A DNA stretch of 64,000 nt from Lautropia sp. SCN 69-89 (GTDB lineage Bacteria; Pseudomonadota; Gammaproteobacteria; Burkholderiales; Burkholderiaceae_E): the NCBI GenBank assembly GCA_001724855.1, contig MEED01000019.1, positions 1 through 64,000 on the forward strand, in the 5' to 3' direction. Each line of letters opens with the position of its first letter. The stretch's first letter is position 1. Below are positions 27,173 to 44,110 of the stretch, piece after piece. Under the pieces are notes generated by a model. The model saw only the letters and a program-made list of their open reading frames with translations, did not search any database and was not told where the DNA came from. A program made the position numbers and the translations under genes.

Positions 27173-27877
27173 TCAGCCGAGCCCGGTCACCGGCAGCGCG
27201 ACCCCGTGCACCGCCCGGGCCTCGTCCGATGCCAGGAAGGCAATCACGTTCGCCAGGTCGCCGGGCGCCACCCAGCGGGCCGGGTCGGCGCCGGGCATCG
27301 CGGCGCGATTCTCCGGCGTGTCGATGATCGTCGGCAGCACGCAGTTCACGTTGATCCCCTTGTCGCGCAGTTCCGCCGACAGCGTCTCGGTGACGCGGAT
27401 CACTGCCGACTTCGCGGCGACGTAGGCGCCCATCAGGGCCGCGCCCTTCTGTGCCGCGAACGCGCCCACGTTGACGATGCGTCCGCCGCCGGCTTCGATC
27501 ATCTTCGGTACGACGGCGGTGGTCGTGCGCAGCAGCGTGCGCACGTTGATGTCGAACATCGCGTTCCAGTCGGCATCGGCAGTCTGGTGCGCAAGCGTGC
27601 CCATCCGGAATCCGCCGGCCAGGTTGCACAGCACGTCGATGCGTCCGAAGCGCCCGACCGCCGCGGCCACGGCAGCCTCGACGCCCGCCTGGTCGAGCAG
27701 GTCCACCGGCGCGAACATGCGTCGCGCGTCCTCGCCGCCGAATGCGCGCTGCAGGTTCTCCGCGCGCGCGTCCGCCAGCACCAGCGCGGCGCCGCGCGCC
27801 GCGAAAGCCTGCGCCACCGCGCGGCCGAGATTGCCGGCGGCGCCGGTCACCAATACGCATCGATCGTCGAAATTCAC
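27173..27877 (-). CDS. Short-chain dehydrogenase/reductase family protein
   Basis: A 234-residue classical SDR fold: LVTGAAGNLGRAVAQAF binds NAD(P), DVLCNLAGG replaces NNAG, and YVAAKSAV carries Tyr and Lys. The usual catalytic serine, about 13 residues before the tyrosine, is replaced: the stretch reads VNVGAFAAQKGAALMG. The enzyme may act without it, as some SDRs of this VNVGA type seem to, or may have lost reductase activity. The GTG start (27877) overlaps the stop of the FUSC gene as GTGA, and the GGAGGA before it serves as ribosome site, so the two are coupled. It ends 10 bases from the convergent DUF748 gene. Confidence 0.87.
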   Translation of the reverse strand: MNFDDRCVLVTGAAGNLGRAVAQAFAARGAALVLADARAENLQRAFGGEDARRMFAPVDLLDQAGVEAAVAAAVGRFGRIDVLCNLAGGFRMGTLAHQTADADWNAMFDINVRTLLRTTTAVVPKMIEAGGGRIVNVGAFAAQKGAALMGAYVAAKSAVIRVTETLSAELRDKGINVNCVLPTIIDTPENRAAMPGADPARWVAPGDLANVIAFLASDEARAVHGVALPVTGLG

Positions 27878-30087
27878 GGCAATCCTCCGGATTCAGCCTT
27901 GTACCCGATCGGCCGGGATGCGCCCAGCGCCGCCAGAGCCGCGCGGGCGGCGCCGGCGATCGCGGGCCCCTCTGCGGCGGCCACCCTGAGCCGGCGCGAC
28001 AGCCATGGCAGCAGGTCCTCGCCCGGCGGCTCGGCCGGCAGCAGCGCGAGCGCAAGCTCGTCCGGCCGCTGTCCGGTCGCCGCCGTCTTCGGGGCCGGCC
28101 CGAGCGAGGCCTGCAGCGCGCGGCGTGTGTCCCGGAGCGCGGCGAGCGCTTCCGGGCTGCGCAGCGACGCGCCGCCGCGCGCAAGCATCAGGCGGATCAT
28201 CGACAGGTGCGCCATCAGCCGCTGTCCGTGATCGAGCAGCGCAGTCAGTTCGTGGATCGGCGGCCGCACCGTCGAGGGTTCGAAGGCGCTGCGCTTGAGG
28301 GCCGCGGCGATCGACCCGAGCGCGTCGTAGGCCCTGCGTCGCGCCAGCCGCTGGGCCAGCGCCGCATCGGCGCCGACCTCCAGCGAATGTTCGGCGTATT
28401 CGCGCAGTGCCTGCAGCGTCCGCCTGATCACCCGCGGCATCGCCCGCCGTTCCCACGACGGCAGCACGTAGCTGAAGCCCCAGGCCAGCAGCGCGCCCAG
28501 CAGCGTGTCGGCCAGCCGCTCGAAGATCGCGAAGCCGCTGGACGGATCCAGCAGGTGAGCCTGAAGCAGCGCCGTGACCGTGCCGGCTGCCGCGGTGACG
28601 AGGTACTGGACAGCCACGAACGCGTGCGCCACGCCTGCCGAAACGGGAAAGATCGAAGCCAGCAGCCCGGGGGAGTCCAGGCGCGCGAGCGCCAGCACCA
28701 GCAGGCAGCCGAGGACCGTGCCCAGCACGCGGGCGTTGCGGCGCGACAGCGTCTGCTCGAGGCTGCCGCGCAGAACGACCGCGACGCTGAGCACCAGCCA
28801 GTACGGGTGCGAAGTCCACGGCAGGGCCAGCGCGATCAGGTACGCGGCCGCGAGGGCGAGGCTCGTGCGCACGGCGTGGCGAAAGACCGGCGAGTGCGGC
28901 GAGAGCTGCGCGCGCAGCGCGCTCGGTGGCCATCCCTCGGGCGCGACGAAGAGCCTGAGCTGGTCGCGCGACAGCGGCACCTGAGCGGTATCCTCGCGGC
29001 CCCCGAGCAGCGCACGAATCCGCGCCGCGTCGGCATCGAGGTGCACGAGGCGGTCGGTCAGCGCCGGCAACAGGCGCAGCCGCAGGTCGCCCGGTTCGAG
29101 CCGCACGGCTTCGAGCGCGCTGCCCGGGGATCGCGGACCGCAACCGGCCGCCCCCGGCGCGATTGCGCGGCGCAGCGCCGCTTCGGCGAACTCGAGCTCC
29201 GCCGCGACGCGCCCAAGGCCGTCGGCGAGCGCTGCGCGCATCGCGCGCCCCGGCTCGTCGGTGCCGAGCAGGTCGACGTCCAGGCGGCTGGCCGTCAGGA
29301 TGTCGCGCAGGTCGATCGCCTCGAGCAGGATCGCGGTCTCGCGGCGCACGCGCGGCGTGTCGGGCGCGCAGAACAGCAGGTCGCGCGCCGCCTGCAGGCG
29401 CTCGGCCAGCTGCGCCTCGTCGTCGATCCAGGTGCGCAGCGCGCGCGCATCCGCATCGGTGCCCGGCGGGGCCTCGAGCGCGTCGGCGCGCGAGCGCAGC
29501 AGTCGCGCCGTCGCGCCCAGCGCGGCAGCCAGCGCGAGGCTGCGATAGCGTCGCCGCAGCATGGCCCCGCAGGCGCACGAACAGGCCAGGTAGGCGAGGG
29601 CTCCGGCGGCATTCCAGGCTGCCGAGGTGGCCGCGTGGCCGGCGTGTGCGGGCTGGGCCATCGTGAAGACGATCGAGAGGATCGGGGCGAACGAGATCGG
29701 GCCGGCGCGCGCCCCCCATGACATCGCCATCGCGGCGGCAAAGCCGATGGCCGCGATTGCCGGAGCAAGCGCGAGCGGCCAGGGTCGCAGCAGGCCCAGC
29801 ACGAATGCGGTGGCGCAGCCGAGCGCGCCGGCCGCGAGCACGCTGCGCCAGTTGCGCTCGAACCGTACCGGCAGGTCGGCGAGGCTCGCATAGACCGCTC
29901 CGGCGACTGCGAGCTGCGCGGCCACGTGATCGGCGAGCCCGGCGAACAGCCACTGGACCATGCCGATGCCCAGGCCCACCGTGAGCCCGTTGAGCAGGTG
30001 CGCGGGCGGTCCGGGCAGCCGCAAGCGCGCGGCAACCGGCCCAGCGCTCGCGGCATGCGGATCGGTGTGTGGCATGGCGATCAGCAT
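27874..30087 (-). CDS. FUSC-family membrane protein (YccS/AaeB-like)
   Basis: A 737-residue inner-membrane protein with two blocks of helices: residues about 25-170 (LLNGLTVGLGIGMVQWLF onward) and 400-540 (AVRTSLALAAAYLIALALPWTSHPYWLVLSVAVVLRG). Soluble helical stretches follow each block. This is the fusaric-acid-resistance/aromatic-acid-exporter layout. WTSHPYWLVLSVAVVLRGSLEQTLSRRNARVLGTVLGCLL matches the YccS-type C-terminal FUSC domain. Aromatic-acid efflux is plausible but unproven. The start is 30087 or the ATG four codons on (30075); neither has a strong ribosome site. It diverges from the aroG leader region and overlaps the SDR gene downstream. Confidence 0.85.
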   Translation of the reverse strand: MLIAMPHTDPHAASAGPVAARLRLPGPPAHLLNGLTVGLGIGMVQWLFAGLADHVAAQLAVAGAVYASLADLPVRFERNWRSVLAAGALGCATAFVLGLLRPWPLALAPAIAAIGFAAAMAMSWGARAGPISFAPILSIVFTMAQPAHAGHAATSAAWNAAGALAYLACSCACGAMLRRRYRSLALAAALGATARLLRSRADALEAPPGTDADARALRTWIDDEAQLAERLQAARDLLFCAPDTPRVRRETAILLEAIDLRDILTASRLDVDLLGTDEPGRAMRAALADGLGRVAAELEFAEAALRRAIAPGAAGCGPRSPGSALEAVRLEPGDLRLRLLPALTDRLVHLDADAARIRALLGGREDTAQVPLSRDQLRLFVAPEGWPPSALRAQLSPHSPVFRHAVRTSLALAAAYLIALALPWTSHPYWLVLSVAVVLRGSLEQTLSRRNARVLGTVLGCLLVLALARLDSPGLLASIFPVSAGVAHAFVAVQYLVTAAAGTVTALLQAHLLDPSSGFAIFERLADTLLGALLAWGFSYVLPSWERRAMPRVIRRTLQALREYAEHSLEVGADAALAQRLARRRAYDALGSIAAALKRSAFEPSTVRPPIHELTALLDHGQRLMAHLSMIRLMLARGGASLRSPEALAALRDTRRALQASLGPAPKTAATGQRPDELALALLPAEPPGEDLLPWLSRRLRVAAAEGPAIAGAARAALAALGASRPIGYKAESGGLP

Positions 30088-30154
30088 AGCGGGCCCCGGC
30101 GCCATGCCCCGGGGTTCGCATGCGACACCGATGCGACAGCGCTGCGAGGCCGAC

Positions 30155-30183
30155 TTGCGGGCCCGACGATCCGGCCGTACACT
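30155..30183 (+). promoter_or_regulatory. Predicted sigma-70 promoter of the aroG leader
   Basis: A TTGCGG box at 30155-30160 and a TACACT box at 30178-30183 are separated by exactly 17 bases. The expected start of transcription, about seven bases past the second box, falls on or next to the A of the leader ATG at 30190. It is the best-matching promoter I see upstream of aroG. Confidence 0.6.
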
Positions 30184-30189
30184 GTCCTT

Positions 30190-30276
30190 ATGTTGCAGCG
30201 CATCGCGTCTTACTTTTACTTCTTCGGCTTTTCCTGCCACCGGCGGGACGAGTCGGGAGCGCGTTCGCAGACCTGA
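30190..30276 (+). CDS. Aromatic leader peptide of aroG (attenuator peptide), 28 residues
   Basis: A short open frame ends 82 bases before aroG. Residues 8-14 read YFYFFGF, so six of seven consecutive codons are Tyr or Phe. Two of the four Phe codons are TTT, unusual in this GC-rich genome. This is the mark of a ribosome-mediated attenuator sensing charged tRNA-Phe and tRNA-Tyr, comparable in logic to the pheL peptide of enterobacteria. No Shine-Dalgarno sequence precedes the ATG, and the predicted transcript starts at the ATG itself, so the peptide may be translated from a leaderless mRNA. The last Phe codon ends at 30231, directly before the first hairpin arm (30233). The peptide itself probably has no other function. 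Confidence 0.8.
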   Translation: MLQRIASYFYFFGFSCHRRDESGARSQT

Positions 30277-30307
30277 AGCAACGAACCGAATCCGATGAAG
30301 CCGCCGG
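30233..30307 (+). promoter_or_regulatory. aroG attenuator: protector hairpin and antiterminator pairing
   Basis: Segment 1 (30233-30238, CCTGCC) can pair with segment 2 (30242-30247, GGCGGG) as a six-pair protector hairpin with one G-U pair. Segment 2 also contains CCGGCGG (30240-30246), a perfect complement of the 5' terminator arm CCGCCGG (30301-30307). A ribosome stalled on the Phe/Tyr codons would cover segment 1, free segment 2 and favour the antiterminator. A ribosome that passes would let the protector hairpin form, and then the terminator. Confidence 0.7.
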
Positions 30308-30329
30308 CCCCGTCCGGCGGTTTTTTTTT
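30301..30329 (+). terminator. Intrinsic terminator of the aroG attenuator
   Basis: A perfect seven-pair GC stem, CCGCCGG/CCGGCGG (30301-30307 and 30314-30320), with a six-base loop, is followed immediately by nine T residues (30321-30329). It lies 25 bases after the leader-peptide stop and 28 bases before the aroG ATG, so it must be read through for aroG expression. Confidence 0.88.
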
Positions 30330-30357
30330 GCCCTGCCAACCGAAAGCCCTCCGAGCC

Positions 30358-31425
30358 ATGCGCCACACCACCGACGACCTGCGAATCCGCGAGATCAAGG
30401 AGCTCGCGCCTCCCTCACACCTGCTTCGCGAGTTCCCGATCAGCGACCGCGCGGCCGCCACGACCTACGTTGCGCGCCATGCGATCCATCGGGTGCTCCA
30501 CGGCATGGACGACCGGCTGGTGGTGATCGTCGGACCCTGCTCGATTCACAATCCGGAGGCCGCACGCGAATATGCGGCCCGGTTGCGTGGCGAGCGCGAG
30601 CGCCTGGGCGCCGACCTGGAAATCGTGATGCGCGTCTACTTCGAGAAGCCGCGCACCACGGTGGGATGGAAAGGCCTGATCAACGACCCCGACCTGAACG
30701 ACAGCTTCGACATCAACAAGGGGCTGCGCACCGCGCGCGAGCTGCTGCTCGACATCAACGAGCTGGGCCTGCCTGCGGGCACCGAGTTCCTCGACATGAT
30801 CACGCCGCAATACATCGCCGACCTGATCGCGTGGGGGGCGATCGGGGCACGCACCACCGAGTCGCAGGTGCATCGCGAACTGGCCTCCGGACTGTCGTGC
30901 CCGGTCGGTTTCAAGAACGGCACCGACGGCAACCTGAAGATCGCGCTCGACGCGATCAAGGCTGCCTCGCAGCCGCACCATTTCCTGTCGGTCACGAAGG
31001 GCGGGCATTCGGCGATCGTCTCGACCAACGGCAACGAGGATTGCCACGTGATCCTGCGCGGCGGGCGAAAGCCGAACTACGATGCGGCCAGCGTCGAGAC
31101 AGCCTGCCGCGAAGCGGCGGCCGCGGCGCTGGCATGCCGGCTGATGATCGACGCCAGCCATGGCAACAGCCAGAAGAAGCCCGAGAACCAGCCCGCGGTC
31201 GTCGCGGCGATCGCCGCCCAGGTGGCTGCGGGCGACACGCGCATCTTCGGCGTAATGATCGAGAGCCACCTGCAGGCGGGCCGCCAGGACCTGGTGCACG
31301 GCAAGCCGCTGGTGTACGGGCAGAGCATCACCGATGCCTGCATTGGCTGGGACGACACGGTGGCGGTGCTGGACACGCTGGCCGAGGCGGTACGCGCCAG
31401 GCGACTGAAGGCCAACGGAGAGTAG
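30358..31425 (+). CDS. aroG: 3-deoxy-7-phosphoheptulonate synthase (DAHP synthase, class I AroG type)
   Basis: The first enzyme of the shikimate pathway, joining phosphoenolpyruvate and erythrose-4-phosphate. The 355-residue protein is close to E. coli AroG (350). Landmarks are LVVIVGPCSIHNPEAAREYA, VMRVYFEKPRTTVGWKGLINDP, FLDMITPQYIADLIAWGAIGARTTESQVHRELASG, PVGFKNGTDG, and MIDASHGNSQKKPENQP with the metal-binding histidine. Cys61-type and His metal ligands are all present. The ATG at 30358 begins the family homology; an in-frame ATG at 30295 would place its start inside the terminator hairpin and is not credible. Expression is predicted to be controlled by the aromatic leader peptide upstream. 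The N-terminal segment that binds feedback inhibitor in AroF/G/H is present, so feedback control is also likely. Confidence 0.96.
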   Translation: MRHTTDDLRIREIKELAPPSHLLREFPISDRAAATTYVARHAIHRVLHGMDDRLVVIVGPCSIHNPEAAREYAARLRGERERLGADLEIVMRVYFEKPRTTVGWKGLINDPDLNDSFDINKGLRTARELLLDINELGLPAGTEFLDMITPQYIADLIAWGAIGARTTESQVHRELASGLSCPVGFKNGTDGNLKIALDAIKAASQPHHFLSVTKGGHSAIVSTNGNEDCHVILRGGRKPNYDAASVETACREAAAAALACRLMIDASHGNSQKKPENQPAVVAAIAAQVAAGDTRIFGVMIESHLQAGRQDLVHGKPLVYGQSITDACIGWDDTVAVLDTLAEAVRARRLKANGE

Positions 31426-43861: not shown

Positions 43862-44092
43862 GAAGCCCCCTCTGTCCGTTTGCCTGAGACATTCAGCGCC
43901 CGCGCCAGCGCGGACCCCTGTTTCCTTCGGCGAGGCATGCACCGCGGTCTCGCGACCGGCGGCGCGGAGCCTTCTCTCCAGAGAGCCGAACCGCTGCAGT
44001 CCTTTTGCCTGAGAGTTTCCGGGGCGATACACCTTCGGCGCCACGCCGGACCGGTCGGCTTGTTTCCGGTCCGCGCAGTCTCTCCCACAGCG
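43862..44092 (-). promoter_or_regulatory. Tandem glycine riboswitch upstream of gcvHPT
   Basis: Two glycine aptamers in series are read on the minus strand. The first has GGGAGAGAC near 44089, GCCGAAGGTG near 44035, and the core CTCTCAGGCAAAAGGAC near 44010. The second has CTCTGGAGAGAAGG near 43980, GCCGAAGGAAACAGGGG near 43925, and TGTCTCAGGCAAACGGACAG near 43885. It is a classical two-aptamer layout and turns on glycine cleavage when glycine is abundant. After the second aptamer, GGGC-T-TCCG (about 43868-43860) can pair with CGGAGCCC just before the TTG start of gcvH, which suggests control of translation start. Confidence 0.95.
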
Positions 44093-44110
44093 GTTGTTCG
44101 GCTGGCGCAA

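Follow-up and report, generated by a model that had tools for sequence, protein, structure and literature searches.

A conserved aromatic leader peptide and terminator upstream of proteobacterial aroG very probably form a transcription attenuator

Ribosome-mediated attenuation is a classic mechanism, and 3-deoxy-7-phosphoheptulonate (DAHP) synthase is the committed entry to the aromatic amino acids. Several described systems resemble the element considered here, which precedes the DAHP synthase gene aroG of Lautropia sp. SCN 69-89 in a 64,000-nucleotide (nt) stretch of contig MEED01000019.1 (positions 1 to 64,000, hereafter the window) and combines a short frame rich in Tyr and Phe codons with an intrinsic terminator. 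The Phe_leader family (RF01859; pheA and pheS) also has a short Phe-rich frame and a terminator; here, however, the gene is aroG, most leaders add Tyr and often Trp codons, and there is no Shine-Dalgarno signal. Corynebacterium glutamicum aroR-aroF likewise has a leader peptide before a DAHP synthase gene, with Phe-Tyr-Phe, and is reported to respond to limitation for Phe but not for Tyr (PMC11802643, PMC4046766); as described, it is set apart by its phylum and by the three aromatic codons named for it. For Acholeplasma, a Phe-containing upstream open reading frame (uORFC-13-1) followed by a terminator has been proposed before aroF, and by its description it is limited to Acholeplasma and environmental sequences and has at least one Phe codon (PMC8632094). 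Finally, leader frames that start right at the 5' terminus of their mRNA, as we predict here, are described for Sinorhizobium meliloti trpL and for several Streptomyces lividans TK24 leaders (PMC7298713, PMC10117765, PMC8079986), although these sense Trp or other amino acids and precede other genes.

The aroG leader thus very probably belongs to the long-known class of ribosome-mediated attenuators, within which attenuation of a DAHP synthase gene has already been reported in Corynebacterium. To call it a distinct regulatory solution, as the initial annotation did for the case that it proves general, was too strong, because the C. glutamicum aroF leader has been reported and the Acholeplasma uORF proposed. 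It does not belong to the established Rfam family: RF01859 at its gathering score matched neither the window leader (nor did it up to E 5) nor any of 20 aroG loci of other lineages. Below the Rfam thresholds the leader matched unrelated families only, with no leader family among them, and none of the Pfam and NCBIfam models matched the leader peptide of the window or of four relatives. Among the matches listed in the open PMC literature, no proteobacterial aroG leader attenuator was described; older comparative attenuation papers lie outside this scope, and a website of predicted attenuators by Merino is pointed to in PMC1173090. The DAHP synthase genes of E. coli are in the TyrR and TrpR regulons (PMC5343134). 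Deleting one of the two aroG genes of Ralstonia solanacearum is reported to induce the other 10-20-fold, and the text of that study contains neither 'attenuat' nor 'leader' (PMC6379268); a switch of the aroG-leader type could lie behind this induction.

That the element attenuates aroG by way of an aromatic leader peptide, as the initial annotation proposed, is very probable because of its conservation, its stall geometry and the rediscovery of known Phe leaders by a model of it. This support is comparative, and the structure in the window, taken singly, is unexceptional. DAHP synthase loci were drawn from a genome-contig collection (the best 80 of at least 591) and from the genus, the order and the phylum of the window (for the phylum, the 30 best-scoring places), a sampling that weights the set towards close relatives. 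A strict screen demanded at least five Phe, Tyr or Trp residues within nine codons of a short frame, followed 15-110 nt on, and before the gene, by a GC-rich hairpin with a T run. It could be applied to 221 of 225 loci, four (L068, L088, L099 and L193) being too short or cut. Leader and terminator were found upstream of 97 of the 221, which carry 94 distinct leaders; none of 1105 dinucleotide shuffles and none of 221 reverse complements passed, so the check in relatives suggested by the initial annotation came out in its favour. Same-genus orthologues carry the leader at 15 of the 16 loci tested, the sole miss (L093) being a contig end that cuts inside a visible leader, and the genome-contig collection contributed 53 carriers among 79 tested loci. 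Some strict-screen misses also have an aromatic frame and a T run (L047, L064, L076, L146-L148, L189 and L190).

The initial annotation had named no earlier case for aroG in a betaproteobacterium. Carriers include Burkholderia, Paraburkholderia, Caballeronia, Cupriavidus, Bordetella and Oxalobacteraceae, along with Janthinobacterium, Massilia and Rugamonas, but the leader is not confined to betaproteobacteria, as it is also found in Xanthomonadales and Rhizobiales (Xanthomonas, Dyella and Rhodanobacter; Bradyrhizobium, Mesorhizobium and Devosia). Leader peptides of relatives include MSAKFYFYFFWYLRPLADREG, MNANRSFYFWYYGFPMPLAEEGVRSP and MITVATSYFWYFSYDSSLAAGGSRSI. On a FastTree tree of 162 DAHP synthases (a quick method without bootstrap; unrooted, with near-copies included), one group of 101 (support 87) takes in 82 of the 86 proteins that have a leader; within it, Xanthomonadales and Rhizobiales sequences are nested among betaproteobacterial ones. 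The leader label changes 16 times, compared with 53.9 when labels are shuffled. This grouping and label count suggest a switch of long standing in this aroG lineage that has moved with the gene and has at times been lost, a direction of events that we infer. The paralogous second DAHP synthase of the genus had the leader at none of the 12 loci fetched. As a separate observation, a frame of 12-13 residues, MSAAQIEAWIGA or close to it, is conserved before that paralogue in the genus (L002, L103, L105, L106, L108 and L109).

A covariance model, R1, was built from 56 aroG leaders and run over 120 genomes of the order and 397 of the phylum. Full-length matches in the order sample (E <= 1e-10) lay 0-300 nt upstream of a DAHP synthase on the same strand in 28 of 29 cases, partly by construction because some of those leaders are in the model; many weaker matches cover only its terminator end. 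Twenty chosen match regions from both runs, none of them a previously known aroG place, were inspected, and four proved to be further DAHP synthases (L282, L283, L284 and L294). Others precede pheS (L278 and L286) or chorismate mutase-prephenate dehydratase (L279 and L280, with the peptide MKIFNTRFLFGFFF..), the gene names at L286 and L280 being given by likeness to L278 and L279, and all of these are Rfam Phe_leader RF01859 (73-84 bits). A model that knows aroG leaders only therefore recognises established Phe attenuators. Ten of the 20 regions (L277, L281, L285 and L287-L293) were set aside as probable chance matches with no convincing leader-gene pair; at L285 an aromatic frame is present, but one that shares sequence with the 3' end of another coding frame, and Rfam finds nothing there.

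Spacing within the leaders is narrow. We number as segment 2 the 5' arm of the antiterminator, as segment 3 the arm common to antiterminator and terminator, and as segment 4 the 3' arm of the terminator (Table 1). The stall codons sit just upstream of segment 2: counted from its first base, the last aromatic codon lies a median of 11 nt (quartiles 9-13) ahead of segment 2 in 94 leaders, and medians of 13 nt and 26 nt separate the end of segment 2 from the stop codon and the stop codon from the terminator. In a ribosome model of 93 leaders, the mean antiterminator probability was 0.63 with the ribosome on aromatic codons and 0.15 with it at the stop codon, a difference that exceeded 0.3 in 74 leaders. 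By position, the probability was 0.64-0.65 with the A site 1-8 codons before the last aromatic codon, 0.57 on that codon and 0.27 two codons on; judged by these values, the aromatic run ends where a stall ceases to favour the antiterminator. In the window the values are 0.64 on the first five aromatic codons, 0.46 on the last and 0.17 two codons later. With no ribosome the mean was 0.50, and 0.62 in the window, and this argues, within the model, that read-through is the default, where a strong protector hairpin would lead one to expect superattenuation.

In the mechanism that we infer, RNA polymerase would begin at or next to the leader ATG, with a ribosome translating the leader trailing behind it. 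When Phe- or Tyr-tRNA is scarce, this ribosome would stall on the Tyr/Phe run and leave segment 2, just ahead, free to pair with segment 3 once that is made, so that the terminator would be blocked and aroG transcribed. When charged tRNA is ample, the ribosome would pass over segment 2 and reach the stop codon (23 nt ahead of the terminator); segment 2 would then be covered or refolded into the protector hairpin, segment 3 would pair with segment 4, and transcription in the cell would end at the T run.

Table 1. Parts of the aroG leader locus, in window coordinates
Feature	Position	Strand	Remarks
-35-like TTGCGG	30155..30160	+	17 nt upstream of the -10 box; TTGC unchanged across 12 sequences of the genus; best promoter-like match
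-10-like TACACT	30178..30183	+	Ends 6 nt upstream of the leader ATG; T-A-x-A-C-T unchanged across 12 sequences of the genus; predicted
Leader open reading frame, 28 codons, MLQRIASYFYFFGFSCHRRDESGARSQT	30190..30276	+	In-frame indels and synonymous changes in the genus; aromatic content by frame
Stall codons TAC TTT TAC TTC TTC GGC TTT (6/7 Tyr/Phe)	30211..30231	+	
Protector (1:2) hairpin, -18.4 kcal/mol	30225..30255	+	Kept in the genus, not in the wider family
Segment 2, CCGGCGG, antiterminator 5' arm	30240..30246	+	Copy of the terminator 3' arm
Inner antiterminator helices, 30252-30256/30292-30296 and 30263-30267/30282-30286	30252..30296	+	
Segment 3, CCGCCGG	30301..30307	+	Common to antiterminator and terminator
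Intrinsic terminator, stem 30297-30307/30314-30324, T run to 30329	30297..30329	+	
aroG, type I DAHP synthase, 355 amino acids (aa)	30358..31425	+	

What the DNA shows directly is the set of parts, how they are conserved, how narrowly they are spaced and which pairings exclude each other. Segment 2 is exactly complementary to segment 3, and both sequences are also found in the terminator, so the antiterminator pairing given in the initial annotation stands, as does its short frame with six Tyr/Phe codons in seven (codons 8-14, Tyr-Phe-Tyr-Phe-Phe-Gly-Phe). The terminator was detected independently (30297-30324), its stem starting at 30297 where 30301 had been given. A pattern of CCGGCGG-N35..65-CCGCCGG-N3..12-CCGGCGGTTTT occurs only once in the 3.8 Mb genome. 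In 72 of 94 leaders, no more than 5 of 100 shuffled segment-2 regions matched the pairing of segments 2 and 3; the mean z was -2.8. The interior of the hairpin from segment 2 to segment 3 also tends to be more stable than shuffled sequence (mean z -1.08 over 86 loci, 51 of them within the best 20 of 100 and 20 within the best 5; the window ranks 9 of 100). For the window transcript up to segment 3 the antiterminator is the best fold (-39.0 kcal/mol versus -35.7 with the protector stem forced), and for the complete leader it is protector plus terminator (-51.9 kcal/mol), with the inner protector stem 30232-30238/30242-30248 as part of this minimum-energy fold. Across the family, as in these window folds, antiterminator and terminator exclude each other.

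The protector hairpin described in the initial annotation survives in part. It is present in the window fold and in the genus, where its 13 pairs are paired in 100% of cells over 12 sequences (11 pairs invariant, 2 with one-sided changes), but over 94 leaders its segment pairs no more strongly than shuffled sequence (median rank 43 of 100, with 8 of 94 in the best 5%), and the hairpin is therefore probably no defining element of the switch. Tested twice as a general feature, it found no support outside the genus.

The stretch from segment 2 to the terminator is nearly invariant in the genus, as might be expected of an attenuator whose terminated RNA or peptide also acts in trans. There is a precedent in rnTrpL/peTrpL of S. 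meliloti, a leaderless attenuator RNA with functions in trans (PMC7298713, PMC10117765). We regard such a second function as unlikely here. The inner antiterminator helices, whose 10 pairs are paired in 100% of lettered cells over 12 sequences (1 pair with a one-sided change), account for much of the invariant stretch, and the peptide is unconserved between families except for the aromatic run and the residues that segment 2 encodes.

The content of Phe, Tyr and Trp per nine codons is 6.48 in the called frame versus 2.10 and 1.60 in the other frames (94 leaders), a comparison that is a check against a T-rich tract and no blind test, because the called frame was chosen for richness. The 5' part of the frame measures 42, 45 or 48 nt in 12 same-genus sequences, always a multiple of three, and most differences within it lie at third codon positions, among them synonymous swaps of TTT/TTC and TAT/TAC. 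Each called leader is rich in codons for the amino acids that would regulate it: 62 of the 97 contain Phe, Tyr and Trp, 32 Phe and Tyr, and 3 Phe and Trp, which puts Tyr codons in 94 and Trp codons in 65. The run of Phe and Tyr codons noted initially holds for the window, but the wider family adds Trp.

There is no Shine-Dalgarno signal at the leader ATG (median pairing with the 16S tail -2.15 kcal/mol versus -2.20 in shuffles, 94 leaders), whereas the aroG starts of the same set have a median of -6.40 kcal/mol (Wilcoxon p 6e-13 versus the leader ATG). A conserved TTGC...TACACT in 12 genus sequences stops 6 nt short of the ATG in eight of them and 9 nt short in four, which places the predicted transcription start at or within a few bases of it; the leader mRNA is thus probably leaderless in this genus, an addition to what the initial annotation had proposed. 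A generic sigma-70 scan of 29500-31000 found no promoter; the promoter call is based on genus conservation. At one locus (L096) an upstream ATG of the same frame stands 6 nt after TACACT, the automatic pick being an inner ATG 55 nt from the best match. Taking all leaders together, the best promoter-like match stops 3-11 nt short of the start codon in 31 of 89 (35%), compared with 15% in shuffles. By eye, TATCA and CTATAT elements stand about 8 nt upstream of the ATG in Xanthomonas-type and Bradyrhizobium-type leaders. Burkholderia and Oxalobacteraceae have their likely -10 element some 20-45 nt upstream, so these leaders would not be leaderless, and they too are without a Shine-Dalgarno signal.

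A start without a Shine-Dalgarno signal is also what one would see if the short frame were untranslated, its aromatic codons a T-rich spacer in a hairpin switch sensed by a protein or small molecule. We consider this very improbable, because aromatic residues keep to one frame (albeit a frame picked for richness), length changes come in multiples of three, and the Trp codons that occur in two-thirds of the called leaders are not T-rich. Nor, although terminators alone are common, is it credible that the hairpin and T run are an ordinary terminator of upstream transcription with a leader frame by chance, as the upstream gene, with frame 27874-30366 and a FUSC-like membrane protein as its product, is encoded on the opposite strand, so that the terminator does not belong to it, and conservation and the empty shuffle controls speak against it.

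The terminator of the proposed attenuator lies between the leader and aroG, whose identity is given by NCBIfam NF006723 AroG (577.1 bits, cut-off 568). As an observation apart, the aroG frame can be extended back through the terminator to an ATG at 30295 (a 376-aa frame; region 30295-30357), an extension that is probably not kept, as the T run varies in length in relatives.

More tentatively, the comparisons allow a fuller reading, which as a whole we consider possible though short of likely. The leaders would form a widespread attenuator family, a two-state switch that travels with one aroG clade across alpha-, beta- and gammaproteobacteria; in several lineages the leader mRNA would start at, or a few bases from, the AUG without a ribosome-binding site; the antiterminator would be the default; and the translating ribosome, not a protector hairpin, would turn the gene off when aromatic tRNAs are charged. 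As Phe, Tyr and Trp codons are mixed in most lineages, one leader would there read all three end products of the pathway. If true, the mixed leader would be a natural three-input sensor of the pathway that it gates. The probable leaderless start, the mixed aromatic run and the dispensable protector hairpin would, if confirmed, be variant traits within a known class of attenuators.

Several results weigh against the attenuator interpretation itself. The Shine-Dalgarno site of aroG itself is weak in this genus. In the window, the pairing of segments 2 and 3 ranks only 11 of 100 against shuffles, and the whole fold has a z of -1.59, with 16 of 200 shuffles folding as well. The modelled contrast between the stalled and the stop-codon position of the ribosome is also weaker there than in most relatives (a mean of 0.61 over the aromatic codons versus 0.36, outside the 74 of 93), and the ribosome in the model is taken to occupy -15 to +13 nt around the A site, with no pairing allowed across it. 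At a base beside the invariant GGCGG core, pairing is kept in 83% of 76 loci versus 66% when permuted (0 of 1000 permutations reach this), by U-A, C-G, U-G and A-U pairs, but a control slid by one base is also 84% paired and hence uninformative, which makes this position alone weak evidence. In the alignment of the genus, pairing is kept in 98% of cells for the antiterminator and in 99.3% for terminator and protector, yet no pair varies on both sides, so that this alignment neither proves nor disproves the pairings. Lastly, a strong R1 match is present at only 28 of 90 DAHP synthase places of the order sample, so many relatives lack the switch or were missed.

An attenuator of this kind would mean RNA-based control of the DAHP synthase step in large proteobacterial groups, different from the repressors of E. 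coli. The covariance model is ready for use, there is a testable prediction of which amino acids the switch reads, and the leader is relevant to the engineering of aromatic production in hosts that carry it.

Some further leaders came to light beside the aroG family. Within 1.5 kb flanks, pheA and pheS of the window's own genome have no aromatic leader in coding orientation. At its trpE locus (L228, contig C23, reverse strand) a TATAGT box is followed by a Trp-rich leader, MRNVQELRSARNANGWRAWRWWCWR, from about nt 637, and the next 150 nt contain no run of five T. Among the inspected R1 regions, two in one family of the order (L275, G130:C20; L276, G043:C11) have a tyrosine-rich leader frame and a hairpin before a gene whose product scores above no Pfam cut-off, with no Rfam match at the leader; this gene is possibly aromatic-responsive. 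At L279 and L280 (G450:C1 and G470:C1), PheA runs, behind its Phe_leader, in frame into a DAHP synthase-like domain inside which the fetched region ends; at L279 NCBIfam models of both kinds match, those for DAHP synthase at residues 411-493 and below their cut-offs. Elsewhere in the window, and away from the leader, the only Rfam match at threshold is a glycine riboswitch, with tandem aptamers at 43868-44097 on the minus strand (RF00504, 55.5 and 38.7 bits).

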